From NCBI GenBank assembly GCA_033182465.1, contig CP137330.1:1468501-1532500 (forward strand): DNA of 64,000 bases, written 5' to 3'. Origin of the DNA: Sanghuangporus weigelae. Its lineage: Eukaryota > Basidiomycota > Agaricomycetes > Hymenochaetales > Hymenochaetaceae. Positions 9,360-64,000 of the stretch are shown here, one piece after another. Each line of letters starts with the position of its first letter. Position 1 is the first letter of the stretch. Below the pieces are notes generated by a model. The model was not told where the DNA came from and did not search any database. It was given only the letters and a program-made list of their open reading frames with translations. A program made the position numbers and the translations under genes.

Positions 9360-10730
9360 TGTACTTACAGCTAGTTGCAAAATTGTTGGCAATCACGTGA
9401 TTTCACTACTTTTCTTGCCATGAGAGCCTCAAAACACAGATAAAATCATATCTCACCCAAATCTCAACAGTTTCACATCATCTAAGTTGCTAAATTCATC
9501 TTTTTAAAAGGGCTTTTGCTTAGGAAAAACTAACAAGAAAATAGAGCAAAAAAGGACCCCAAAATGGCAAAAATATCGTTTTTTGCCTCTTCCTTGCATG
9601 TGCATTTTTTTCTGTGATCCCTGCTGGTCCAGCACCTCCCCAAAGCTATCCAGAATGATAATATGATTATAAAATGAATTTACAGACTGAGTTTGAGTTG
9701 AATTGTGTACCAGAATGTGCTGCTTTGAGGCATGCATGAATCACTCAAAACTTATCATTTCCCTCTAGCCTCCCAGGCTCCAGGAAAAATTCTTACAGGC
9801 TAGATTCATGCATGTAAATTTATTTTAGATGTAATAGACTAGGTTTATGTGCTAGCTAGGGCCTCAGCATCCACTGGTGAGCTGGGCTGAACAAGTATTT
9901 CTAGTTGTATGCACTATTCTAGACAGCATCTCCCCAGCTCACCAGTGGATGCTGAGGCCCTAGCTAGCACATAAACCTAGTCTATTACATCTAAAATAAA
10001 TTTACATGCATGAATCTGGCCTGTAAGAATTTTTCCTGGAGCCTGGGAGGCTAGGGGGAAATGATGAGTTTTGAGTGATTCAGGCATGCCTCAAAGCAGC
10101 ACATTCTGGTACACAATTCAACTCAAACTCAGTTTGTAAATTCATTTTATAATCATATTATCATTCTGGATAGCTTTGGGGAGGTGCTGGACCAGCAGGG
10201 ATCACAGAAAAAAATGCACATGCAAGGAAGAGGCAAAAAATGATATTTTCGCCATTTTGGGTTCATTTTTTGCTCTATTTTCTCAATTATTTTTTTGAAA
10301 TGAAAGCCCATTCAAAAAGATGAATTTAGCAACTTAGATGATGTGAAACCATTGAGATTTGGGTGAGATATGATTTTATCTGTGTTTTGAGGTTCTCATG
10401 GTGAGAAAAGTGATGAAATCACGTGATTGCCAACAACTTTGCAACTAGCTGTAAGACACTAGGTAACAAACTGGAGAGAGATGGTGGTGGTTAAAGGTCA
10501 AGTTGCTCTCTCTCTTGGCACACTCGCTTGCTCACCTTATATAGGCTGAGCTTATTAAGCATTATTAAGCATTACAAAGCAAGGCCAAGAAAATAAACTA
10601 ACAATAGAACTCAAATGCACTTGCTTATATAAGAAAATTAAGTTTGACCTTCTTAATATAAAATCTGGTTTCCATCTTGGCTTCTTATCCTGCAAGTCCA
10701 AAGCTTATATCTCTTTATGGTATCCTAACA
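9360..10730 (-). mobile_element. Putative solo LTR (minus), split by palindromic element A
   Basis: Read on the minus strand from 10730, the sequence starts TGTTAGGATACC, contains a TATATAAGG promoter-like box near 10,540 and a GA-rich GAGAGAGAGCAAC leader. This is the usual make-up of a copia-type LTR. The other end may be TAAGTACA at 9360-9367, on the far side of the 1,084-bp insertion. No 5-bp flanking duplication was found, so the left boundary is uncertain. No internal retroelement genes adjoin it. Confidence 0.4.
9368..10451. mobile_element. Palindromic TA-foldback element, copy A (1,084 bp)
   Basis: Begins CAGCTAGTTGCAAAATTG and ends with its reverse complement, flanked by TA (9366-9367 and 10452-10453). 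The two arms of about 515 bp are near-perfect inverted repeats around a loop of about 46 bp near 9,890-9,936. No protein is encoded; open frames in it are shadows of the palindrome. TA duplication and CAG ends fit non-autonomous Tc1/mariner/pogo-type DNA transposons. The loop is type 1 in forward orientation. It interrupts the putative solo LTR. Confidence 0.92.
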
Positions 10731-18011: not shown

Positions 18012-21000
18012 TCAAAATATTAATCCATTTTCGATGTGGAAAGTTTTGTAGTGAGCAGGGTTCTCAAGGATCAGTTTGAAAAACTGATCTTCATGAAATT
18101 GGTTCTTCAAACAGTTTGGAAACTGCATCTGTGGTTGGGCTTGTGCAATTACATCAGTAAGTGTCGGTTCTACTGATTGTTGCAAATTTTGAGTGTCTGA
18201 TTGTATTGTAGGAAATTGTGGATCAATGGTATCCATTTCCTTGCCTGTATACGTTGAAGTCGCGACTTGCGAAGGTTCAGAGTGGATCGGCGTATAAGAA
18301 CGATCCTGGATCGTCTTACCATTCTGAGTAATCATCTGTGATGGTGAACTGGTATGTCGATCATTTTGCTGAGATGCGTTTGGATTCCGAATTCTCAAAG
18401 TTACTTTCTTAATTTGTGATGTTTGCCTTTCGCCCTCCAGTTCTCTGGGCATGTTATCTTGCTGTTCGCCTCTCTTGAAAGTAATTCTAAGCTTTCTGGG
18501 TACACTGGAAACCGTGTTTATGGTTCGATCCTCGGTTTCCTGAAGTGGTATGGAGTACACTTCAAGTACATTTATGGGATTGATCAGTATCGGACTTGTA
18601 CCTTTGTTTTCAAGGCGGCGCAATATTGATACGTCATTGTCATCAATCTGGTTCGTGTATTCTAATCGTGTTTGCACTGTACCAGGTAAGTCTTCTGCAT
18701 AGATTTGAGATAACGCATCTGCTAAGATGTTTTCGGTTCCTGCTACATAGATTACTTCAAAATTGAAGTCTGAAAATTTCTCTATCCATCTAGCCTGCCT
18801 ACCACTTAGATTCGGCTGTTCGAATAAGTGTTACAGTGGTTTGTGGTCCATAAACCATCAAAAATGTGCACCTTGCAGTAAGTTTTTGTGTCTGAGCATA
18901 GTTTCGACTCCTGCTAACAGTTCTTTGTCATGTACAGGATAATTCTGCTGTGCAGAATTCAACTTAGCAGAATAAAATACAGCAACCTTTGCATCTCGCC
19001 AGTCATCTCCTTGACTGATTATTCCTCCAATTCCAGTGTGAGAAGCATCTGTAGTTACATTGATTGGAGGTGAGTTCTTGCCATACTATAAAACTACACG
19101 ATGATGATTTTGAAAATCATGTACTAATTTGACAATTTGGTCAAACACTTGCTGTTCAGTATAAGACCATCGGAATCGAGAAGTCTCACCCAAAATATTG
19201 GTGAGTACTCCCATTGGTATTCTCAATTGTGGAATATTCAGTGCTAAGTATCCTACTGCACCCAGGAATCGTTTCAACGAATCCTTACTGCTCACTACCT
19301 TCTATTTCTAAATAGAATCTATTTTATGTGGGTTTATCCTGATACCGTTATCATCAACTATATGTCCTAATATGCGTAATTCTGATTGAAACAGTTGCAT
19401 CTTGTGTTTGCTAAGGTAAAACTGTTCTTTATACAAAATGTCGATAACAATTTTCAGATGTCGAATATGATCCTCAACCGTATCAGAATATATCACCAGG
19501 TCATCAAGATAGATATCCATCCAATCTCTCAGATATGGTTGAAAGATGTGATTCATTAGAGCTTGGTACGTCGCTCCACTATTGCAATCTCTCAATTGCA
19601 TTACTTGACTAACCATTGTACCATCCGGTGTATTGAATATAGTTCTCGATACATGCTCTGGGACGACCCGAATTTGCTCGTAAGCATCCTTTCCATCTAT
19701 TAGTGACCTGTATTTCTTACAGCTAGTTGCAAAATTGTTGGCAATCACGTGATTTCACCACTTTTCTCGCCATGAGAGCATCAAAACACAGATAAAATCA
19801 TATCTCACCCAAATCTCAACGGTTTCACATCATCTAAGTTGCTAAATTCATCTTTTCGAAAGGGCTTTCGCTAAGGAAAAACTAACAAGAAAATAGAGCA
19901 AAAAAGGACCCCAAAATAGTGAAAATATCGTTTTTTGCCTTTTCCTTGCATGTGCATTTTTTTCTGTGATCCCTGCTGGTCCAGCACCTCCCCAAAGCTA
20001 TCCAGAATGATAATATGATTATAAAATGAATTTACAAACTGAGTTTGAGTTGAATTGTGTACCAGAATGTGCTGCTTTGAGGCATGCCTGAATCACTCAA
20101 AACTCATCATTTCCCCCTAGCCTCCCAGGCTGCAGGAAAAATTCTTACAGGCCAGATTTATGCATGTAAATTCATTTTAGGTGTAATAGACTAGGTTTGT
20201 GCACTAGCTAGGGCCTCAGCATCCACTGATGAGCTGGGCTGAACAAGTGTTTCTAGTTGTATGCACTATTCTAGACAGCATCTCCTCAGCTCACCAGTGG
20301 ATGCTGAGGCCCTAGCTAGTGCACAAACCTAGTCTATTACACCTAAAATGAATTTACATGCATAAATCTGGCCTGTAAGAATTTTTCCTGCAGCCTGGGA
20401 GGCTAGGGGGAAATGATGAGTTTTGAGTGATTCAGGCATGCCTCAAAGCAGCACATTCTGGTACACAATCCAACTCAAACTCAGTCTGTAAATTCATTTT
20501 ATAATCATATTATCATTCTGGATAGCTTTGGGGAGGTGCTGGACCAGCAGGGATCACAGAAAAAAATGCACATGTAAGGAAGAGGCAAAAAATGATATTT
20601 TCGCCATTTTGGGGTCCTTTTTTGCTCTATTTTCTTGTTAGTTTTTCCTAAGCAAAAGCCCTTTTAAAAAGATGAATTTAGCAACTTAGATGATGTGAAA
20701 CCGTTGAGATTTGGGTGAGATATGATTTTATCTGTGTTTTGATGCTCTCATAGCGAGAAAAGTGGTGAAATCACGTGATTGCCAACAATTTTGCAACTAG
20801 CTGTAGATGCAACTCTACGAAGTACAGATTCAATGTCAGGCAATGGTGAAGATAATTTTTGAGTGTTCGTGTTCCGATCTCGTAAGTCTACAACTGTTCT
20901 CAATCAAATTGGCTCGTCTTTATTCTTACGAGGTTTTTGCAGCAATAACATTGGCATTGTGTTTGAACCGGTAACTACTTTCCGTCTTTCACTCTGAATG

Positions 21001-49836: not shown

Positions 49837-49988
49837 GGTGCAACTGAAACAGAAGGTGTCGGTGTGCTAAAGATAGAGAAGTCCCGAATCCAGTGTCATG
49901 AGTTGGACTGGCTCCATCTTCCATGAAAGCCGTCGAGAAAAAGAAGGCTACATATCACTCACGGGAGGCTTTAGAGGACCCCCGACGA

Positions 49989-50471
49989 TACTGATAGATC
50001 CCTCTGCCTGATCCGGATACAACCTGCCAAAATTCGGACCCTCAACCCTCTGTAAACCCGGATATTTTTTGCAAAATTTTCGCTTCAACCCCCCAAAATT
50101 TCCGGATAAGGGGCATATCAGGTCGGGTCAAGCCTCTGCCAATCCGGATATGGGTTGCCAAGCGTGATGTTGTCTGACTAACAGTACTGGTTGGAATACA
50201 AAAAATCAATGTAGTCAATTCAATTCAATTGAACAGGACAGGATGTACAGGATCGAAACACCAAGACACAGTAGTCTAGTTTATCTATACAAGTACTACA
50301 GGTGCTGACAAAGCCGGATATGCCACGCCCCTTTTGGAACCCTCTGCCTGAATCCGGTCACATTTGCCCTAACCGGCCACCGACTCCCTGCAAATCCGGT
50401 CAAAACCGGGCGCGTCAGCGCCCGGAAATCCGGATACGGACCCCCAAATCTGGCAGAGGCATCTATCAGTA
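49989..50471. mobile_element. 483-bp TIR element inserted in the left TIR of the Argonaute-carrying element
   Basis: Ends are TACTGATAGATCCCTCTGCC and, on the minus strand, TACTGATAGATGCCTCTGCC. The interior repeats ATCCGGATA-type motifs, including a CG-rich hairpin near 50,405. The uninterrupted right TIR of the host element acts as a paralogous empty site and shows that the two halves of the left TIR were once adjacent. The exact duplication is ambiguous (AT or TA). Confidence 0.7.
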
Positions 50472-51052
50472 TTCACTGCGTTCCATAGGTTTGTACAGTA
50501 ATGTCTCTTAGAATACATTATTTAAGCTACACGTGCCTACAAGACGAGTTTGTAGCGCAGATCACTGTAGATCTTGTAGTCTCTTAAAATCATAATATCA
50601 TAAGCTAGAAGATTCAAGTAGATGGCATCTCTTATCCTAGATGATTTCTTGTAGACTGGCCCACCTGTTACATTCTAGTATCTTGTAGATGAACTACTGT
50701 CTCTCGATGAGAATTTTTACCTCAACTTTCCAACACTAAGTAGCAACTTATAGCAAGTGATCTTCATTTCCATATTCAGAGCACAAATCAATCTTGAATT
50801 CACATTAATTACCCCATATAATTACATATTGCTATTCATCGCTATCAGCCAGTTTAGCAAGCATACCATGATCATTTAACGCATGGCGTACATCGAATGT
50901 AATGGTGGAGGTGAAGGTGGAGATGGAGGGAGATCACATTCACTGTGTGCGGAAAAAATGTGAGAGAGATTGTAACACACGCAAATTGTAAAGCAGCACC
51001 TTCACCTTCTTGTTGCCACCGAGCTGAGCAAATGCAAATAAGATACTGAGAT

Positions 51053-52325
51053 ATGGGGGCATCCAGTTCGCAAAGCCTTCAGAGTTCAGAGCTTAAACGC
51101 CTTGCATTCATGGTCTTAAAGGATGGGAACATAGAAGAGTCCAACAGCTCGCTTGAGGTGCAGGTGCGCGAGGCAGTCAAGGCACCGCTTGGAAAGTGCC
51201 GGGCATGTGGCATGAGCGTCAATCCAGACTTCATCATACAAGTGATCCAGCTCCACCACCCGAGTCGAGAGGATCTGCACCGTGACGAGGATGTGGACAA
51301 AGTATCAAGCTTGTTCGAGTCGCTTGCCTCAGTTGTTCTCGCCCTCATGTCAAACAAAGATAATCACATCTATGCGGGACTCCGCCGGTACTCTGAGATC
51401 AGTATCTGGCCTTATTGAGAACATGCTTGACAAAGAAGCCATGGTCAGTATCTGGCCAATCTCGTGCTTAAGATTAACACGAAGCTCAACGGGATCAACG
51501 ATCGGCTGGAGCCTGCTTCCCTGAAATGGCTGGCAAACACGATGGTGGTCGGGTTCGATGTGATTAAGCTGGATGGGAAAGCAGTCAAGGGTGCGCCTGG
51601 TACCGCGGCGGTTGCAGCGTCGTGCGACATGAACTTCGTGCAATACCATGCGAGCGTCTCATTCAAGTTGCAGGGGCTGGAGGAGGAAGTGAGTGTATTT
51701 TCTTATGCTCTGATGCAAGTGACTAACACAGGCATTCGGATGGCCAGCACGCGCGGATCATGACCGCTGAGATCAAGCAGCTGAAGCATTCAGTGAGTTG
51801 AAGAAATACAAGCCGAAGCTGACTTACGTCGCTTGTAGCAGGGGTCACCAGACTTGGTTCTACCCGATGAAGGCAGAAGATGTGGACAGGATCTTGTACT
51901 CTCTGGCGGAACCGGTCATAGACCAGAAGAGCATTATTGACTACGATTTCTACTTGCAGGCTCACACGAGCACGCAAAGTATCGCTCATGCGGCTCACTA
52001 CACGGTCCTCCATGAAGACGACGAGTTCTCTCCCGATGCTCTGCAGCAAGGCATCAACGACACTTCGTACCTCTGGGCGGCGTCCACGAACAGCGTGAGC
52101 TTGGTACCACCAGTCTATTGGGCAAGTCAGGCACGCGCTCGCACACGCTTATACTTGTGCAAAGTGATGTCGTCTGCTGAGAGAAGTAAGGAGGCCAGGA
52201 TGTCGGCTCAGGATGTCATTGGTAAGGCAAAGGGACTCTGGAGGGACGGAGTCTCAGGTGGCAGAGGACGGGTGGCAGAGGATGATGGTGGAGGAAGAAA
52301 GAGAGACGTGATGATGCAAGGGTGA
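51053..52325 (+). pseudogene. Argonaute-like MID-PIWI relic (QDE-2/AGO family)
   Basis: The ATG at 51053 opens a segment like the Argonaute MID domain (VVLALMSNKDNHIYAGLRR). Further on come LVLKINTKLNGINDRLEP and MVVGFDVIKL, matching the start of PIWI with its first catalytic Asp. A short block SDGQHARIM resembles the RDG.S.GQ motif (next Asp) with a deletion. DYDFYLQAHTSTQS and VSLVPPVYWASQARARTRLYL are the typical PIWI end, but the catalytic His position is Ser. N and PAZ domains are absent and some 45 residues before the second Asp are missing. One possible intron is 51388-51438, which joins phases but omits about 25 family residues; otherwise two frameshifts must be assumed. The region near 51,790 also changes frame. 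It cannot be a working slicer. Confidence 0.78.
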
Positions 52326-52622
52326 GAAGTGAAGTGGACAACTTGAAGTCATGACCGGCTTAATATTACAGTAGATGATATAGTATCCTCTGGTGAATCT
52401 CTTCTAGTGTTGCTATATTAATCTACTCAGTTGTTCAGTCTGTCTGTCTATTTTATTTTCATGTAGTATCTTCACACATGACATACACAATGCTACGGTA
52501 GATTCAGTTTTCTGACCCGACTGAACGATCTTGTATATTCTTGCTATCACAACTACTGTAATCTATCGGACATCCTCTAGAATCTCATGGAACGCAGTGA
52601 TTGTCGGGGGTCCTGGCTTTAG

Positions 52623-63607: not shown

Positions 63608-63796
63608 AAGGTGATTTTCGTGCAATTTATAATGAATATATTTTTTTTTGTGATTTTCGTGCATTTCTTGTCCCCCTCCCCCCAGCTGTCATCCTATATA
63701 TATTCCTCCTGGGATCTTGGTCAAGATCCCGGGGGGCCCCCCACCTTCCTCTTTCGGTAATATGCTTAGGTTATCTCCACCCCTTTTAGGCAACCC

Positions 63797-64000
63797 CCCC
63801 CCCTAGGATCACGTCACGCCCCCCCAGTCCGTCACGCCCCCCCAGCCTGTCACGCCCCCCCAGCCCGTCACACCCCCCAGTCCGTCACACCCCCCAGTCC
63901 GTCACACCCCCCCAGTCCGTCACACCCCCAGTCCGTCACACCCCCCCAGTCCGTCACGCCCCCCAGTCTGTCACGCCCCCCAGCTCACGTCACGTCCCCC
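63797..64000. repeat. C-rich minisatellite
   Basis: About eleven copies of a 17-19 bp unit, CCCCCCAGTCCGTCAC with variants (CCTGTCACG, CCCGTCACG), run to the window end. The C run varies from four to eight. It does not match the TTAGGG-type telomere repeat. Confidence 0.9.

Follow-up and report, generated by a model that had tools for sequence, protein, structure and literature searches.

A probable Pack-CACTA-like element with a captured Argonaute MID-PIWI fragment, nested in a hAT-like MITE of the basidiomycete Sanghuangporus weigelae

Plant Pack-CACTA, or Pack-TYPE, elements carry captured coding DNA between DNA-transposon ends, as described in the available part of the report on them (PMC8903248). 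The element analysed here resembles these plant elements in its transposon ends, its captured coding DNA, its several copies and its lack of a transposase. It differs from them, as far as that part of the report describes them, in its fungal host, in its ends (CACTGCGTTCC versus CACTACAA in plants), in a silencing gene as cargo and in that the searches described below found no autonomous partner. The transduplication of histone H3 by hAT elements in Dothideomycetes is a further related case, in which a chromatin-related host gene is likewise multiplied by a fungal DNA transposon (PMC6710886, accessible portion). Copies are inactivated in both systems. According to that portion, the hAT element captured a transcript or retrocopy, reached hundreds of copies and was inactivated by RIP, whereas the element here appears CACTA-like, captured intron-bearing genomic DNA, is present in about ten copies and has one copy with a RIP-like load. 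Fungal EnSpm, Plavaka and KDZ transposons with TET/JBP genes also have an epigenetic gene as cargo, and those of the EnSpm type share with the present element the CAC..GTG ends and the 3-bp length of the duplications, which are described for fungal EnSpm in general (PMC12730594, in the sections available). Those transposons encode a transposase together with the dioxygenase, whereas here a broken fragment is carried without transposase. The rice CACTA element with miR820 contains, like the present one, sequence matching a host silencing gene, OsDRM2 (PMC3459959, in part). The available text on rice reports a microRNA, repression and co-evolution, whereas in our case no hairpin was found and the analysis is of DNA sequence alone. 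No Argonaute fragment on a CACTA element was found in the literature searched, which comprised titles and the openings of abstracts, with subscription papers mostly outside it; this is no proof of absence.

We searched the genome of Sanghuangporus weigelae (33.87 Mb in 13 contigs, C1 to C13). The window, the stretch of 64,000 nucleotides that was analysed, corresponds to C13:1468501-1532500 and reaches the contig end. The structure of interest in it consists of two nested elements. An Argonaute-bearing element is inserted within the right inverted repeat of an outer hAT-like MITE and has duplicated ATT on insertion. The features are as follows, in window coordinates.

49967..49974, unstranded: left 8-bp target duplication of the outer MITE, GGCTTTAG (partner at 52615-52622)
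49975..50473, unstranded: outer hAT-like MITE, left end with body (94% to the uninterrupted copy C1:4006838-4007349)
50471..50473, unstranded: left 3-bp target duplication ATT of the Argonaute element (flank comparison of copies)
50474..52599, plus strand: CACTA/EnSpm-like non-autonomous element with Argonaute sequence, 2,126 bp (six further full-length copies, 3-bp duplications in 7/7)
50474..50486, plus strand: left TIR CACTGCGTTCCAT, 13 bp (inverted-repeat and consensus search)
51053..51418, plus strand: open frame MGASSSQSLQSSELKR..., 121 aa, MID-like, ended by a stop (ORF list, frame check across copies)
51055..52253, plus strand: Argonaute MID-PIWI sequence captured as genomic DNA, still with part of an intron (limits set by the region homologous to the C2 host genes)
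51078..51091, plus strand: 7-bp tandem duplication TTCAGAG (not present in the old C5:1.27 Mb copy or in the host genes on C2)
51431..51760, plus strand: PIWI fragment 1, matching positions 43-124 of Pfam Piwi (E 8.1e-10)
51689..51731, plus strand: intron-like stretch GTGAGT...CTAACACAG (alignment to host genes)
51771..52325, plus strand: PIWI fragment 2, matching positions 174-297 of Pfam Piwi (E 6e-16), its C-terminus specific to the element
52587..52599, minus strand: right TIR ATGGAACGCAGTG (inverted-repeat and consensus search)
52600..52602, unstranded: right 3-bp target duplication ATT of the Argonaute element (flank comparison of copies)
52603..52614, unstranded: what is left of the outer MITE's right end, GTCGGGGGTCCT (alignment to the C1 copy)
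52615..52622, unstranded: right 8-bp target duplication of the outer MITE, GGCTTTAG (partner at 49967-49974)

Six full-length copies of the inner element exist besides that in the window (C9:1459521, C8:255877, C5:2743449, C6:191584, C5:2707912 and C2:2537013). They are 88-98% identical to the window copy, and all seven, 2,075-2,136 bp long, contain the Argonaute sequence. Each is flanked by a perfect 3-bp duplication (ATT, ATT, AAT, AAG, ACA, ACT, AAT), while among 42 control comparisons of mismatched flanks 4 agree. Duplications of 4-9 bp occur at none of the seven, so the 8-bp duplication of a hAT carrier is missing. The sequence-only reading had a non-autonomous hAT element moving an Argonaute fragment; capture and spread are borne out, and the superfamily is not. 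The genome search that it proposed with the terminal repeats recovers the inner ends. Their 25-base consensus is found at 15 places genome-wide, against none for a control pattern; 13 of these places are ends of the full copies, which have 14 ends in all, and the other two are older remnants. One older remnant, C5:1269960-1271783, has lost its right end; another extends from C9:1712205 to 1729177, is split by about 15.7 kb and shows no left end. On C4 there is an older right-end fragment split by about 3.7 kb, and one frame beside it has no Pfam match. Apart from this C4 fragment, which shows the right end alone, no copy with inner-element ends and a different interior was found. The search with the whole element gave at least 40 matches, which include host genes and short Argonaute-like pieces, and counts from it are lower bounds. 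One piece of this kind, 43-46 bases long (element bases 1454-1500, 87-91%), is found repeatedly close to contig ends. It accounts for 11 of the 40 matches, lies about 3-11 kb from the end (for example L030:1501-1543) and is seen on C1, C2, C3, C4, C6 (both ends), C7, C9, C11 and C12.

Similarity between copies is not uniform along the element. For left flank, cargo and right flank, identity is 97.6, 93.4 and 92.1% between window and C6 and 84.1, 92.0 and 98.3% between window and the copy at C5:2.71 Mb, which suggests that copies have probably exchanged sequence. The copy at C6:191584-193713 differs from the majority of four copies at 106 positions, and C>T and G>A changes make up 92 of these. 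By context, 43 of 172 CpG, 37 of 329 CpA, 10 of 188 CpC and 2 of 303 CpT sites are changed, a load that by these contexts is RIP-like or methylation-linked in pattern.

The inner element begins with CACTGCGTTCCAT and ends with ATGGAACGCAGTG, giving the 5'-CAC..GTG-3' termini of the CACTA/EnSpm (CMCT) superfamily, and its duplications in all seven full copies have the 3-bp length of that superfamily. It also has the make-up of a Pack-TYPE element, with TIRs, captured host coding sequence, several copies and no transposase among the listed frames of at least 60 aa, which comprise the cargo frames and short others; the Pfam scan covered the three cargo frames, and to this extent the absence of a transposase agrees with what the sequence-only reading had stated. 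We would file the element as CACTA/EnSpm-like and Pack-CACTA-like, by ends and duplication length only. Membership of the carrier in a different superfamily that makes 3-bp duplications, such as a Harbinger relative or PlavakaB, is unlikely. Profile matches over the cut-off place Plavaka transposases at five loci of this genome, PlavakaB makes 2- or 3-bp duplications, and no transposase links the carrier to CACTA; the ends described, however, are CATCA..TGATG for PlavakaB and TGT..ACA for PlavakaA (PMC12730594, available sections), and here they are CACTG..CAGTG.

Transposase_21 profiles match at three loci, one of them at C5:367674. In a check confined to the other two, the 13-bp end of the Argonaute element is never matched in more than 10 of 13 bases. 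The two loci that were compared, L082 (C6:2031000-2039000) and L083 (C1:203200-210200), are 98.8-99.1% alike in both aligned blocks, and one of them holds an open frame of 575 aa. In one of the two, the transposase is flanked by a pair CACTACAATAAAAT/CATTGCAATAAAAT (12/14), which looks like a canonical CACTA end and differs from that of the Argonaute element. We rejected this pair as the transposon ends: the repeated unit extends past it. The true ends lie outside the compared stretches, because the aligned blocks extend to either end of the shorter of the two. Searches starting from the Argonaute element's own end gave no partner either. Outside the known copies, the exact 13-bp end occurs at C9:1955905 only (one of seven matches; control 0; about one chance match expected), and a degenerate search gave 75 matches versus 50 in the control, mostly chance. 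The 19-mer CACTGCGTTCCRACACTTT, of which the first 11 bases equal the element's end, is found with at most one mismatch at ten places, for example L084:158-176, and never in the control. The one locus of this kind that was examined was rejected as an autonomous partner, with no convincing second end within 4 kb.

The cargo is Argonaute-derived, as the sequence-only reading had recognised, with Pfam Piwi matches for both fragments. Its homology to host genes extends from element base 583 to 1780 and covers MID and PIWI, short of the final eleven residues; N and PAZ are missing, also as noted before. The comparison with the host Argonautes that had been proposed identifies the donor lineage as that represented by three closely similar genes on C2 at 3.220, 3.262 and 3.288 Mb, within about 72 kb, with 81-83% DNA identity to the cargo. 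Because an intron-like stretch remains in the cargo, the captured material was genomic DNA. About 100 bp of host intron and exon adjoining the intron remnant are missing, including the region of the catalytic-Asp motif. The C2 gene at 3.22 Mb, the one that was scanned, shows matches to ArgoN, L1, PAZ, L2, MID and PIWI across its exons, those to PAZ and MID below the Pfam cut-off. A slicing-type Argonaute has the full N-PAZ-MID-PIWI architecture with a catalytic DEDH or DEDD, and the cargo, with neither N nor PAZ and with broken frames, is not of this type. All three C2 genes read FRAG where AGO3 has YRDG, which places Ala at the catalytic Asp, and YWAS where AGO3 has YYAH, which places Ser at the catalytic His. 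The C11 and C12 Argonautes have FRDG and YRDG, respectively, and Asp at the last position, with YWAD in the C11 gene. The best PDB match, an AGO10 chain that we take to be engineered, likewise reads YRAG. The C2 class looks slicer-deficient, because of the FRAG motif and the Ser at the usual His. The Ser that had been pointed out in the window copy is real and is inherited, not a change of the element, since all three host genes already have it. At codon positions 1/2/3, the host gene pairs differ by 6/4/33, 23/15/88 and 25/15/77, from which purifying selection between the C2 genes is evident.

Small RNAs from the cargo could in principle act against the parent genes. If small RNAs made from transcripts of the copies matched and repressed the C2 Argonaute cluster, silencing of the element would be eased, by analogy with rice miR820; we regard such counter-silencing as quite improbable. 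Of the 2,106 21-mers of the element, 54, 44 and 59 have perfect matches in the three host genes, and the longest shared run is 51 nt, with the gene at 3.29 Mb. When the mismatches were shuffled 5,000 times, 0.1% of the shuffles gave a run this long, which is the lowest value of 12 comparisons and uncorrected for the 12. The rice CACTA-borne miR820, acting on the DNA methyltransferase gene OsDRM2, gives a small-RNA precedent (PMC3459959, in part). Against this, the inverted repeats of at least 12 nt reported within the element amount to the two TIRs and a single 19-nt pair (84%), and neither a miRNA-like hairpin nor long dsRNA was found. Within the 51-nt stretch, 47 of 51 bases match in two of the seven copies, close to the identity of 92.0% that this pair has over the cargo in general; the stretch is lost from the old C5 copy, and its conservation among host genes is expected from protein constraint. 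We rejected it as a maintained target site: within the element family it varies at roughly the general rate. The C2 genes, which look slicer-deficient, need not be silencing effectors. The broader proposal that the whole CACTA family would be a counter-silencing parasite, with antisense or RdRP-made small RNAs dampening the slicer-deficient C2 Argonautes as a fungal counterpart of miR820, is a long shot by the same analogy.

An intact cargo frame is found in none of the seven copies. Pairs of element copies differ at codon positions 1/2/3 by 30/29/38, 37/41/27 and 40/50/32, and window and C8 by 2/3/4. Window and C6 differ by 27/17/38, a third-position skew that is hard to read because the C6 copy carries mostly C>T and G>A changes. 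Host-element pairs are intermediate, for example 59/55/110, because they include evolution before the capture. Near-even differences between copies are as expected of a pseudogene. The cargo would no longer encode a working protein and is most likely a mere passenger. A truncated MID-PIWI protein acting as a dominant-negative decoy is very improbable. Such a protein could start from the 121-aa frame MGASSSQ..., as the 7-bp duplication TTCAGAG brings the start codon at 51053 into the MID reading frame; an ATG in frame after an indel is, however, a 1-in-3 event. Two S. weigelae gene models sourced from NCBI, P0007 (243 aa) and P0016 (240 aa), resemble the cargo of such copies, and P0007 starts with the same residues as the short frame in the window. 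These models, presumably from another assembly or strain, leave room for expression of the cargo, but as predictions only. The broken frames in all seven copies and the near-neutral codon differences disfavour the decoy role. A protein search with the second PIWI fragment returned three proteins, one of them named (S. weigelae, P0016), and none from other named Sanghuangporus species; as broken frames often go unannotated, this is a weak hint that the element does not occur outside this lineage.

The outer MITE is about 510 bp when whole and has AGGACCCCCGAC ends. An uninterrupted 524-bp copy without Argonaute lies at C1:4006838-4007349, and the genome search gave two weaker relatives (73%) on C10 and C2. 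The 8-bp target duplication agrees in 8 of 8 positions in the window and 7 of 8 at the C1 copy (GGCTAATA/AGCTAATA), a length as in hAT elements that other kinds, such as Zisupton, also make (PMC12730594, available sections). When 50474-52602 is deleted and the window flanks are joined, they align straight across the insertion point with the C1 copy, which has one ATT there. The AGGACCCCCGAC ends and the 8-bp duplications belong to the MITE, because the C1 copy aligns uninterrupted through this point. The supposed left 28-bp TIR is composed of AGGACCCCCGAC at 49975 and CACTGCGTTCCAT at 50474, 487 bp apart, while on the right-hand side the corresponding blocks are separated by three bases only. 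With up to three mismatches allowed, a genome-wide search finds the joined 28-bp sequence a single time. The 8-bp direct repeats and both inverted blocks are as first described; their union into one repeat of about 28 bp fails, with the blocks belonging to two elements. That a single hAT element with 28-bp TIRs carries the Argonaute piece, as the 8-bp duplications and paired blocks at the window locus had made it appear, can be practically dismissed, given six other copies with neither AGGACCCCCGAC ends nor 8-bp duplications and a MITE that is uninterrupted elsewhere.

The window also contains seven copies of an element of about 1.1 kb (9364-10455 and near 19717, 21086, 24435, 31318, 34499 and 57527). 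All seven begin with TTACAGCTAG and end with CTAGCTGTA. In at least five of them, among the 25 longest inverted pairs, two arms of about 520 nt (94-97% complementary) enclose a loop of 46-50 nt, and the arms would yield long dsRNA if transcribed. The shared ends suggest TA duplications, and the element may be mariner-like. A tandem repeat of 16-18 bp, of the GTCACGCCCCCCCAGTCC type, occupies 63794-63999 at the very end of contig C13.

The Pack-CACTA-like reading orders the events of the Argonaute element as follows. Both capture junctions are at the same places in the seven copies and the old C5 copy, and the left junction is also common to the old C9 copy. The C9 remnant retains a stretch of about 100 bp that is absent from the window copy (169 versus 68 bases between matched blocks; 177 versus 75 in the host-gene comparison), and the C5 remnant has its own deletion over this region. 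The 7-bp duplication is present in all seven full copies and missing from the C5 remnant. In a midpoint-rooted tree of the seven full copies, the C5 remnant and the three host genes, with the C9 remnant left out, the eight element cargos split from the host genes with 100/100 support and the C5 remnant falls outside the seven. The alignments and this tree fit a single capture, then deletion and duplication, then spread. A non-autonomous CACTA/EnSpm-type (Pack-CACTA-like) element would have taken up genomic Argonaute MID-PIWI from the C2-cluster lineage, and the captured piece would then have decayed by the deletion of about 100 bp, the 7-bp duplication, stops and frameshifts. The element would have kept multiplying with the dead fragment as passenger, presumably by a CACTA-type transposase acting in trans. 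One late copy would have inserted into the right inverted repeat of the older hAT-like MITE and created the nesting in the window. Taken as a whole, we consider a Pack-CACTA-like fungal element with a dead Argonaute passenger highly probable.

Nested elements can mimic a single element with long TIRs. The case shows that in a basidiomycete a CACTA-like element has taken up part of an RNA-silencing gene and multiplied it. It raises a testable question, namely whether silencing is affected by fragments captured from its own genes or whether these are inert passengers.
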